Assembly (NCBI GenBank): GCA_002898795.1
Contig: BEIG01000010.1
Span: 1 to 50,231, forward strand
Direction of reading: 5' to 3'
Source: a bacterium HR30
Lineage (GTDB): Bacteria > Desulfobacterota > Binatia > HRBIN30
Length of the DNA: 50,231 nt
Position numbers and translations under genes: made by a program
The notes under the pieces: generated by a model
The model's input: the letters and a program-made list of their open reading frames with translations, nothing else
What the model was told of the DNA's origin: nothing
The model's database searches: none
Shown: one piece after another, positions 12,603 through 48,494 of the stretch
How the letters are laid out: each line of letters starts with the position of its first letter
Numbering within the stretch: the stretch's first letter is position 1

Positions 12603-12794
12603 GGATCAAATTCTATCGTGTAGGGTGGAGCTTAGCTACGAGAAGCGAACCGAGGGTGGGTCCGATCCATGTCCGATTGCCGCCGAGTTCACCGAGTTTC
12701 TAGAGCGTCGGAATCGGAAGAGCGAAACGCATGCATTTTTGTTCCGGGCTCGCTGGGCACGGTGAAAGCTAGGAAAGCTGAGGGTCCAAAAGTC

Positions 12795-14291
12795 ATGACG
12801 AGGGGATGGCAGCACAAACTAGCCGTACTGGGTGCAGCATGCGGAATCTGCTTCGCGTTAGCGGGCAGGCTGTGGGCAGAAACGAAAGGTGGGGCAGGCG
12901 AACGCCTGCCGGTGCGACCGTTGTTGAGCGATCGGATTCGCGTCGAGGTGGTCGACTGGTTCCGGCCCGCTCCGGGCCGAAGTCACGCAGGAGCGCAACG
13001 GTACTCCTTTTACGCCAACCAACTGCGCTTCGGCGCGGAGTACGAGTATGGCGTGGTCGGTGTGGTGCTCGAGGGCCAGTATACGCAGTTGCTCGGCTTG
13101 CCGGACGACGCGAGCTTGCCCCCACCCGAAGGAAACTTAGGCCCAGGAGCCATCTACTTTGCACACACGCGGCGCCACAACCAGGGCGAGGTGTTCCTGA
13201 AGCGAGGTTTCTTGACTCTGCGAAACTGGCAGGTACTTCCGCCCGCGAGCATCGCCCTTGGGCGGTTCGAGCTGAGTGACGGCTTGGAAACGGTGCCCAA
13301 GGATCCGTCGTTGGCGTGGCTCAAAAGGGCGCGAGTGGCCGAACGGTTGATTGGCCCATTTGGCTATACCCATGTCACCCGGAGCTTCGACGGCGTCCGG
13401 CTAGGCTGGGATGAACCCCGCTGGAATTTCACTGCCTTTGCCAGCCGACCAACCCAAGGCGGCTTCGAAATTAGCGCTAACCCCGAGCTCGACGAAATCG
13501 GCCTGGCTGGCGCGGCTCTGACATGGAAAGAACAGCCGAACCTATTCCCCTTGGATGGTCGCGTGTTTTGGTTGTACTACGAAGACGATCGCGATCGAGC
13601 GGTGAAAGTGGATAACCGCCCGGCCGGCACGCGCGTGAACGATCGAAAACGGATTGCCATCCACACCGTGGGGTTCCACGCGTTGGGAGTCATTCCGGCA
13701 GGGCCGGGTAAGGCCGACTACCTCGCTTGGCTTGCTGTGCAGCGGGGCCGGTGGGGCGACCTCGACCACGCCGCCTGGGCTTGGTCGCTCGAAGGGGGCT
13801 ACCAGTTGCCCTTCCTGCCGGCCGAGCCGTGGGCGCGCATCGGATACACGCAAAGCTCTGGAGATGCCGACGCTACCGATGGCGAGCACGGAACGTTCTT
13901 TCAACTGTTGCCCACCGCGCGACTTTACGCGCAGACGCCGTTTTTCAACCTCATGAATATCGAGGACTTGTTTGCGCAGCTCCTGCTACGACCTCATGCG
14001 CGGCTCACGATTCGAGCCGATTGGCATTGGCTCCGCGTAAACGATGCCGCTGACCTTTGGTACGCGGGAGGCGGAGCCAGCAACGATCGTATCTTTGGCT
14101 TTGCGGGCACGCCTACCGGTGGCCATCGGGAGCTGGCGCAGTTGGTCGACATCGGCGCCAGCTATCAAGTGCATTCCCGCGTGCAAGTTTATGCTTACTA
14201 CGGCCACGCCTTCGGCCAAAGCGTGGTGTCGCGCACGTTTGCCGGAAAACAGCTCGACTACGGGTACGTAGAACTCACCGCTCGTTACTGA
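12795..14291 (+). CDS. Alginate-export (AlgE-like) family outer-membrane porin
   Basis: N-terminal signal-like segment, beta-barrel alternation, SDRIRVEVVDWF...RYSFYANQLRFGAEYEY..., LGRFELSDGLE, terminal aromatic YVELTARY. Internal ATG 12795 preferred. Confidence 0.75.
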   Translation: MTRGWQHKLAVLGAACGICFALAGRLWAETKGGAGERLPVRPLLSDRIRVEVVDWFRPAPGRSHAGAQRYSFYANQLRFGAEYEYGVVGVVLEGQYTQLLGLPDDASLPPPEGNLGPGAIYFAHTRRHNQGEVFLKRGFLTLRNWQVLPPASIALGRFELSDGLETVPKDPSLAWLKRARVAERLIGPFGYTHVTRSFDGVRLGWDEPRWNFTAFASRPTQGGFEISANPELDEIGLAGAALTWKEQPNLFPLDGRVFWLYYEDDRDRAVKVDNRPAGTRVNDRKRIAIHTVGFHALGVIPAGPGKADYLAWLAVQRGRWGDLDHAAWAWSLEGGYQLPFLPAEPWARIGYTQSSGDADATDGEHGTFFQLLPTARLYAQTPFFNLMNIEDLFAQLLLRPHARLTIRADWHWLRVNDAADLWYAGGGASNDRIFGFAGTPTGGHRELAQLVDIGASYQVHSRVQVYAYYGHAFGQSVVSRTFAGKQLDYGYVELTARY

Positions 14292-46607: not shown

Positions 46608-46975
46608 GACTAGGCGAGTAGCTTACGATCACACTACCTGAAAGCGAGAGCCACGGACGCGAATGGCCTGGCGGTAGAGTGCGTGGATGAAGCGCGGGAC
46701 CCGTGTTCCCGCAACCTCGTTGCCGGCTAGGGGCAGCCGTTGCGGCTCCATGGGTGAGAGTGCGGAGGCCAAGCTTCTGCGCTCGAATGAGAGGAGGGAC
46801 CTTTGCTGCGGCAGACCTCCCGTACGGCGGGGCCGCCGAACGTCGCGGTGGCGGAGAACCCGGCCCCATTCAATCATGCGCGGTTGGCACTGAACTGGCC
46901 AGACGCCCACTGTCGAACAAGGGCCCTCGTACACTTGCATTCACGAATGGAGCTAGGTAAAGGGACGGCCGCGAC

Positions 46976-47125
46976 ATAGGCCGAATCCCTGGAGACAGGG
47001 AGCGGGGGAACCAAGATTTTTGGGGTGAATCCCGAGGACGGATGCAATCCTGATCCGAGGGTAGGGTAACTCTTTGAACCCGAACCCGGCAGCTAACCTC
47101 GTAGGCCTTCAAGGAGAGGCGCCGA
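46976..47125 (+). ncRNA. ydaO/yuaA-type cyclic-di-AMP riboswitch aptamer
   Basis: Matches the recalled conserved blocks in order: ggccgaatccctggagacagggagcGGGGGAACCAagattttTGGGGTGAATcc ... GGGTAACTCTTTGAACCCGAACCCGGCAGCTAACCTCGTAGGCcttcaaGGAGAGg; lies 5' of a cell-wall peptidase gene. Confidence 0.93.
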
Positions 47126-47224
47126 CACCTGGTGACGGCCTCGGGGCCTTGCCAGAGCCGGCAGCAAGCCGTTGTGCGGTGGGACGTGGCCTCTCCCGGT
47201 ATGTCGCGGAAAGGAGAGGAGGAG
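47113..47224 (+). promoter_or_regulatory. Candidate expression platform: anti-SD element with two alternative partners
   Basis: gcctctcc (47189-47196) is perfectly complementary to ggagaggc at the aptamer 3' end (47113-47120) and its cctctcc part to ggagagg at the SD (47213-47219), just before ATG 47226. Confidence 0.65.
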
Positions 47225-47225
47225 T

Positions 47226-48494
47226 ATGGACCACGCGCAACGGAGGGTATGGCTTACGGTGCTCACGGCGACCACATGCGTGGCGCTTGTAAGCCCCGGG
47301 CTTGGCGCAACCAAACGTGCCCCGAACCGCGGCCCGGCAACGCAATCCTTGCGGGTCGAGCGGCACGTCGTCGCGAGTGGAGAAACCTTAACCTCGATCT
47401 TGGCGCAGCGGGGTTTGCAGACCAGCGAAATTTTGCGTTGGCATGAGGCAATGCAAGCAGCGGCTGGCGAGTTCGCGCTGAGTCCTGGCCATGTGCTCCG
47501 ATTGGAGTTTCAAGGGCAGGTGCTGACGCGGACGAGTTACGAGGTCGACGACTGCGTCCGGGTGAAGGTGGAACGCCGCGGCAAACGGTTACTCGGGAAA
47601 ACCGAACCATTGCAGGCGCGGGTGCGCATGGTGGCGCGAGAAGGCGTGGTAACCAAGTCTTTTTCCGCGGCCGCCCGGCAAGCTGGAATTCCCAACGCCA
47701 TCGTGTCGAAGATGGCGGACGTGTTGGGCTGGGAATTTGATTTTCGGCGCGTTCGAGCCGGCGACCGCTTTCGCGTTCTCTACGAAGAGCGGACGAGTGT
47801 CGATGGCCGACCCTTGTCTCCCGGCAAGTTGTTGGCCGCGGAAATCCGCAGTGGAAAGCGGGTGTACCAAGCCTTCTTTTACGATGACGGAGGCGAAGGC
47901 ACGTACGTGGACGGCAATGGTCGCACGCTCTCGAACGGTTTCTTGCGCTTTCCCGTGGAGTTTACCCGCATTACCTCGCACTTTTCGCGGCAACGCTTTC
48001 ATCCTGTGTTGCAGGTCGGTCGCCCGCACCATGGCGTAGATTTCGCGGCTCCAGCAGGCACCCCTGTGAGAGCGGCCGGAGACGGGGTGGTCGTGTCTGC
48101 CGGGTGGGAAGGCGATTACGGAAATCAAGTGGAGATTCGCCACGAGAATGGATGGTCCACCGTGTACGCCCATCTGAAGGGGTTTGCCCCCGGCATCAAG
48201 CCAGGGCGCGCTGTTCGCCAAGGTGAGGTGATTGGCTATGTCGGGCAGACTGGCCTCGCGACGGGCCCGCATCTGCACTTCGGTCTTTTTCGAAATGGGC
48301 AATACCAGAACCCCCTTACCGCCAAGGTGGAACTACGCCGCGAAGTGAGGGACCCGGTGCGGTTTGCGGAGGCAAAGCGAACTCTGCTGCGGCAAATTTC
48401 GGCGCTTGTACGGCCGGCGCCACCGGTGGCGGCAACGATGCTTGCAACCGGGCCCAGTACGCTGCGCCCGTCGATGGTCTCGCTGCAGCCCTAA
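47226..48494 (+). CDS. LysM-like plus M23 (LytM) peptidoglycan endopeptidase
   Basis: VERHVVASGETLTSILAQRGLQTSEIL LysM-like; HHGVDFAAPAGTPVRAAGDGVVVSAGWEGDYGNQVEIRHENGWSTVYAHLKGF...VGQTGLATGPHLHFGLFRNG (HxxxD / HxH). Confidence 0.94.
   Translation: MDHAQRRVWLTVLTATTCVALVSPGLGATKRAPNRGPATQSLRVERHVVASGETLTSILAQRGLQTSEILRWHEAMQAAAGEFALSPGHVLRLEFQGQVLTRTSYEVDDCVRVKVERRGKRLLGKTEPLQARVRMVAREGVVTKSFSAAARQAGIPNAIVSKMADVLGWEFDFRRVRAGDRFRVLYEERTSVDGRPLSPGKLLAAEIRSGKRVYQAFFYDDGGEGTYVDGNGRTLSNGFLRFPVEFTRITSHFSRQRFHPVLQVGRPHHGVDFAAPAGTPVRAAGDGVVVSAGWEGDYGNQVEIRHENGWSTVYAHLKGFAPGIKPGRAVRQGEVIGYVGQTGLATGPHLHFGLFRNGQYQNPLTAKVELRREVRDPVRFAEAKRTLLRQISALVRPAPPVAATMLATGPSTLRPSMVSLQP

Follow-up and report, generated by a model that had tools for sequence, protein, structure and literature searches.

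The window, the whole 50,231-nucleotide stretch that was analysed, is contig C10 of a 3.73-Mb draft genome (211 contigs, 95.8% complete). A cmscan search of the window returned a single match to the c-di-AMP (ydaO/yuaA) riboswitch family, RF00379, with 98.8 bits and an E-value of 2.6e-22, about 60 bits above the gathering score of 38. The match is untruncated (model positions 1-134 of 134), contains all helices and conserved cores, and shows only two non-standard pair marks against the RF00379 structure; the pseudoknot that joins the 3' tail to an internal loop, TTCAAGGAG:CTCTTTGAA, is also present. The earlier note had recognized a ydaO/yuaA riboswitch from consensus motifs, all of which were found in the sequence, and had suggested the covariance score as a check; the score and the complete aptamer confirm the identification. 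Its coordinates, 46976-47125, locate the element, with a 5' end that is 7 bases short and a 3' end that is 2 bases long. Of the 28 ligand-contact positions listed for this family (PMC7288161), 23 are identical in the window when mapped via a reference sequence that itself agrees with the list at 27 of 28 letters; the differences are A25G, A70U, U71A, A109C and the one position where the reference and the list disagree. Judged by every conclusively testable sequence feature, the element is an ordinary RF00379 member.

The aptamer is followed, 102 nt downstream and in the same direction, by the start codon of a gene for an M23 endopeptidase (Table 1), with domains Peptidase_M23 (3.3e-35) and Csd3_N2 (2.5e-19) in Pfam and with scores of 218.7 bits (ShyC) and 208.4 bits (MepM) in NCBIfam, both under the equivalog cut-offs. 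The downstream gene had initially been described as a LysM/M23 endopeptidase: the co-directional M23 cell-wall endopeptidase stands, but Pfam reports no LysM domain at 1e-3; the segment RHVVASGETLTSILAQRGL resembles LysM/OapA by eye. A protein search of named genomes found a relative in 'Candidatus Binatia bacterium' that is 88% identical in the best segment and covers all 422 residues; the genus of the window's genome belongs to Candidatus Binatia. An alternative reading frame from GTG 47132 (104 aa) was rejected, its start not being conserved in relatives.

Table 1. Features of the riboswitch leader and its gene in the window
Feature	Position	Strand	Basis or remark
c-di-AMP (ydaO/yuaA, RF00379) riboswitch aptamer	46969..47123	+	cmscan, full model; orthologues in three same-genus genomes
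P0 5' strand CCGCGACATA, directly 5' of P1	46969..46978	+	perfect 10-bp complement of 47200-47209; compensatory changes in relatives
P1 5' strand GGCC, partner 47104-47107	46979..46982	+	cmscan structure line
Pseudoknot loop strand CTCTTTGAA	47070..47078	+	partner TTCAAGGAG at 47108-47116; tail:loop covariation among compared loci
Aptamer 3' tail TTCAAGGAGAGGC, the pseudoknot strand	47108..47120	+	its GGAGAGGC (47113-47120) is an 8-bp perfect complement of 47189-47196
Anti-Shine-Dalgarno (anti-SD) GCCTCTCC	47189..47196	+	CCTCTC conserved in f1/f3 leaders; can pair with tail or SD
P0 3' strand TATGTCGCGG, between anti-SD and SD	47200..47209	+	complement of 46969-46978
Shine-Dalgarno (SD) GGAGAGG of endopeptidase gene	47213..47219	+	6 nt upstream of ATG 47226
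M23 endopeptidase with Csd3_N2 domain (MepM/ShyC-like), 422 aa, presumed regulated gene	47226..48494	+	Pfam PF01551, PF19425

The assembly, a draft in many contigs, has an estimated contamination of 2.96%, which might point to a chance similarity or to a contaminating Gram-positive contig. The probability of either is negligible: the E-value of the match is far too low for chance, and the same pair of leader and gene lies on long contigs of same-genus genomes (G001, 365 kb; G002, 1.27 Mb; G003, 1.28 Mb), so that their joint occurrence in independent genomes excludes this explanation.

Envelope type and c-di-AMP metabolism

The genome encodes LptD (94.6 bits, cut-off 22.4), and the window an Alginate_exp outer-membrane protein at 12669-14291; the organism is therefore diderm, as had been supposed from the outer-membrane proteins in the window. 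A DAC domain was found in one protein of the genome (148.7 bits), whose score with the CdaA equivalog model, 235.4 bits, exceeds the cut-off of 188.8 and marks it as CdaA, the single diadenylate cyclase; the search for such a cyclase, the other check suggested at the outset, hence was positive. The cdaA gene is followed by a co-directional YbbR/CdaR-like gene and then by a gene for GlmM (479 bits). The gene in between looks like one for YbbR/CdaR by position and appearance, with no match in NCBIfam; the order cdaA-cdaR-glmM is the classical one of Firmicutes.

A search of the draft genome for a PgpH-type phosphodiesterase was negative. Three proteins matched DHHA1, among them the RecJ-like L052 and a DHH protein of small size, L053, and none of the three could be named a c-di-AMP hydrolase. 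The small protein (L053:775-1746, plus strand; 323 aa) is a stand-alone DHH/DHHA1 protein and, PgpH being absent, a possible c-di-AMP or pApA phosphodiesterase. The co-occurrence of riboswitch and DAC domain was discarded as evidence, for DAC is present in 80 of 99 relatives regardless; two genomes (G061 and G081) carry the riboswitch without DAC, but are only 80-81% complete.

Distribution and target genes of the riboswitch

Within the class Binatia, 17 of 151 genomes carry the riboswitch, in families f1, f3 and f11 and as a single case in f9; at the level of the GTDB phylum it was found in 55 of 396 sampled genomes and in 38 of 246 genera. The rarity in diderms that the earlier note implied is overstated in view of these counts and of reviews in which Deltaproteobacteria, Cyanobacteria and Spirochaetes are listed as DAC carriers (PMC5575661, PMC7288161). 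The occurrence of RF00379 in a diderm thus is not novel in itself; the interesting part is the leader platform, which perhaps is a variant. Our search of the literature, of incomplete coverage, found no report joining Binatota with c-di-AMP or a riboswitch, or Desulfobacterota with both.

A second RF00379 copy of this genome (C36:15331-15485, minus strand, 95.4 bits) lies upstream of a gene for an RlpA-family protein (TIGR00413, 109.2 bits, cut-off 82.15), followed by a universal-stress protein gene. Both riboswitch targets in this genome are envelope enzymes. The M23 and RlpA targets recur in related genomes, and orthologous leader-gene pairs are present in genomes of the same genus. In contrast, 16 of 17 downstream genes tested in the wider phylum are transporter genes (six Kup-type K_trans, nine AA_permease_2, one KdpA; the remaining gene is a radical-SAM gene), several of the AA_permease_2 genes looking KimA-like by appearance, whereas in Binatia the copies stand upstream of genes for M23 and DPBB/RlpA enzymes. 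The aptamer family is common to both groups, and the neighbours' targets (Kup, APC permeases, KdpA) are transporters, not cell-wall enzymes. In their predicted targets, Binatia resemble Actinobacteria, and their phylum neighbours Firmicutes, a contrast drawn from PMC9960051.

Further observations were made at these loci. Near the second riboswitch, L004:2917-5625 (minus strand) encodes a 902-aa, secreted-looking protein with a long low-complexity repeat region rich in Thr, Pro and Ser. For the RlpA protein (L004:6713-7330, minus strand), the f11 members carry E or D (ASGERF, ASGDRF) at a position that the f1/f3 homologues fill with R, K or a small amino acid (ANGRSF, ANGKSF, ASGATF); this position presumably lies near the catalytic acid, and the activity of the f1/f3 proteins may differ. 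A divergent riboswitch of 57.3 bits (L030; G004:C190, 333-496, minus strand) precedes the apparent start of a Kup K+ transporter, on a contig that at 510 nt is too short to exclude contamination. Pairs of RF00379 matches in the same orientation, 2-3 kb apart, stand near L069, L063 and L072 in wider-phylum genomes (G189:C3, 511433 and 513778; G228:C29, 79650 and 77100; G434:C45, 5596 and 7965), which suggests neighbouring transporter genes that each have a riboswitch of their own.

Conserved pairing elements of the leader

Between aptamer and gene, the window leader contains an anti-SD whose motif includes CCTCTCC and which is a perfect complement of the tail segment GGAGAGGC and, in a stretch of seven bases, of the SD as well. 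Further, a newly seen outer helix, P0, can be formed just outside P1 by CCGCGACATA with TATGTCGCGG. A CCTCTC between tail and SD is present in 14 of 14 f1/f3 leaders, where dinucleotide shuffling predicts 0.31; within each set, the four species of the same genus do not count as independent. For P0, the 14 leaders (11 distinct, registered by hand, one order) were aligned, and 85.7% of the cells are paired; five of the seven pairs are altered on both sides and nine further pair types occur, either of which was reached by 2 of 500 shuffles. When the registers were slid by one to three columns, zero to one pairs were altered on both sides, and the covariation score was 0.016-0.102 compared with 0.268 in the proposed register. 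Examples of compensation are CACGAC/GTCGTG (L024), GTGAC/GTCAC (L010) and GCGTC/GACGC (L014); P0 is shorter in the RlpA copies (5-7 bp).

The tail:loop pairing of the pseudoknot scored 18.7 for cognate and 16.5 for swapped partners in Binatia (shuffled at most 13.0), and 16.5 and 12.9, respectively, in the wider phylum (shuffled at most 12.9). The pairing of the tail with downstream sequence is weak across the wider phylum (16.2 compared with 15.6 for swapped partners), and a model with the tail as switching strand is therefore confined to Binatia. In Binatia, conservation between genera extends to the aptamer, the anti-SD, P0 and the SD alike, and also to the two gene types.

The variant leaders of the other two families carry intrinsic terminators. 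In f3, a terminator directly follows the aptamer and precedes an anti-SD/SD pair. In f11, a terminator was found in 10 of 10 leaders, and GGAG of the tail lies 7-8 nt before an ATG in nine and before a GTG in the tenth (L027). This codon opens an RlpA frame in six of the ten (L009, L015, L017, L019, L020, L028), the DPBB/RlpA domain being confirmed for L009, L015, L017 and L020; in the same six, a strong terminator-like hairpin with a T-run lies within the signal-peptide codons, and R-A-G-G-A-I-P-R is conserved. The pseudoknot strand of f11 thus appears, from these sequences, to be itself the SD of RlpA, with the terminator hairpin placed inside the signal-peptide codons; if so, ligand binding would directly hide the ribosome site. 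In three other f11 cases (L022, L027, L029), a second riboswitch copy stands before a protein that looks secreted (e.g. ...FAQSSGNFDAAVSPTVCTLNS...); the L029 protein, the one of the three that was tested, gave no Pfam match at 1e-5. These may possibly be novel envelope proteins under c-di-AMP control.

Proposed control of translation and relation to known systems

We propose that the leader is a translational OFF switch through which a high c-di-AMP level, set by the single CdaA, lowers synthesis of the peptidoglycan endopeptidase. We assign this reading a probability of about two in three; a complete aptamer, a CdaA homologue, a co-directional cell-wall gene and conserved complementary leader elements are all present. 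With ligand bound, tail positions 47108-47116 would be held in the pseudoknot with the loop (47070-47078), leaving the anti-SD free to pair with the SD, and translation would be blocked. Without ligand, the tail would pair with the anti-SD, P0 would close the leader, and the SD would be exposed. Since the elements are transcribed in the order tail, anti-SD, P0 strand and SD, the outcome is probably decided while the RNA is being made.

The predicted energetics depend on transcript length. When the transcript stops short of the SD, 11 of 14 leaders are predicted to pair tail and anti-SD at 0.4-1.0, and 13 of 14 to form P0. In equilibrium folding of the window leader, P0 is dominant in both states with 12 nt after the SD, and anti-SD:SD pairing is dominant with 25 nt, with or without the pseudoknot; the energies of the two states invert with transcript length (-109.3 versus -99.8, then -109.8 versus -113.0 kcal/mol). 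Including 5-12 nt beyond the SD favours the ON form, by about 8-10 kcal/mol, and including 25-40 nt favours the OFF form, by about 3-5 kcal/mol. In equilibrium folding of full leaders, blocking the pseudoknot strands alone left the state predicted for the window copy as it was. As SD pairing was unchanged or P0 persisted for this copy, fold energies are not claimed as proof of switching; a kinetic, co-transcriptional choice would fit. The ambiguous energetics would also be compatible with an ON switch, or with an aptamer that lost its regulatory link and was retained otherwise. We consider this improbable, given that aptamer, anti-SD, P0 and SD are conserved between genera with the same two gene types, and that the known members are OFF switches (PMC9960051).

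It is somewhat less improbable, albeit still unlikely, that the riboswitch acts on transcription by intrinsic or Rho-dependent termination, the SD pairing then being incidental or of secondary importance. In Bacillus subtilis, control by termination is established (PMC9960051, PMC5575661), a terminator is clear in the f3 relatives and present in all ten f11 leaders, and the f11 tail pairs with the 3' strand of the terminator (GGGATC:GATCCC; compensated as AGGATC:GATCCT in L022). Against this, the search for a G+C-rich hairpin with a T-run after the aptamer was negative in all eight f1 leaders examined, the window leader and the second copy of this genome among them, and such a model would give the conserved anti-SD and P0 no evident function; a Rho-dependent mode may still apply.

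Beyond the proposed OFF switch of this locus, we tentatively suggest for Binatia that the pseudoknot tail AAGGAG may act as the switching strand with which a c-di-AMP riboswitch controls translation: in f1 a decoy that rivals the true SD for one anti-SD, assisted by P0, and in f11 the SD of RlpA itself. If this is true, it would explain in structural terms how translation comes under the control of a c-di-AMP riboswitch, and it would hold in a diderm lineage with cell-wall targets, unlike the K+ uptake targets of the phylum neighbours.

The ydaO/kimA riboswitch of B. subtilis (RF00379) shares with the window copy the full-length aptamer consensus, the expected ligand and the expected OFF logic; it has a transcription terminator and controls K+ transport genes (PMC5575661, PMC9960051), whereas the window copy has no terminator, precedes a cell-wall peptidase and is accompanied by P0 and an anti-SD. 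The nlpC riboswitch of Corynebacterium glutamicum is similar in its cell-wall peptidase target and in the absence of a canonical terminator, and its repression is most likely translational according to the authors (PMC9960051); it differs in its actinobacterial, monoderm host and in the NlpC/P60 family of the peptidase. Streptomyces riboswitches (six in S. lividans) resemble the Binatia copies in serving a regulon of secreted cell-wall hydrolases (PMC8079986), but also belong to monoderms, and the S. coelicolor copy is reported to have no terminator and to act independently of Rho (PMC9960051). For one organism, reporter data have led to the suggestion that a c-di-AMP riboswitch controls translation, which according to the authors had not been shown earlier (PMC9960051); within our incomplete coverage of the literature, no report other than that on C. 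glutamicum nlpC was found.

The Binatia leaders provide a concrete, mutable structural model of translational control with comparative support, and it is very probable that an uncultured diderm lineage uses c-di-AMP to control peptidoglycan enzymes, as is well known for Actinobacteria.
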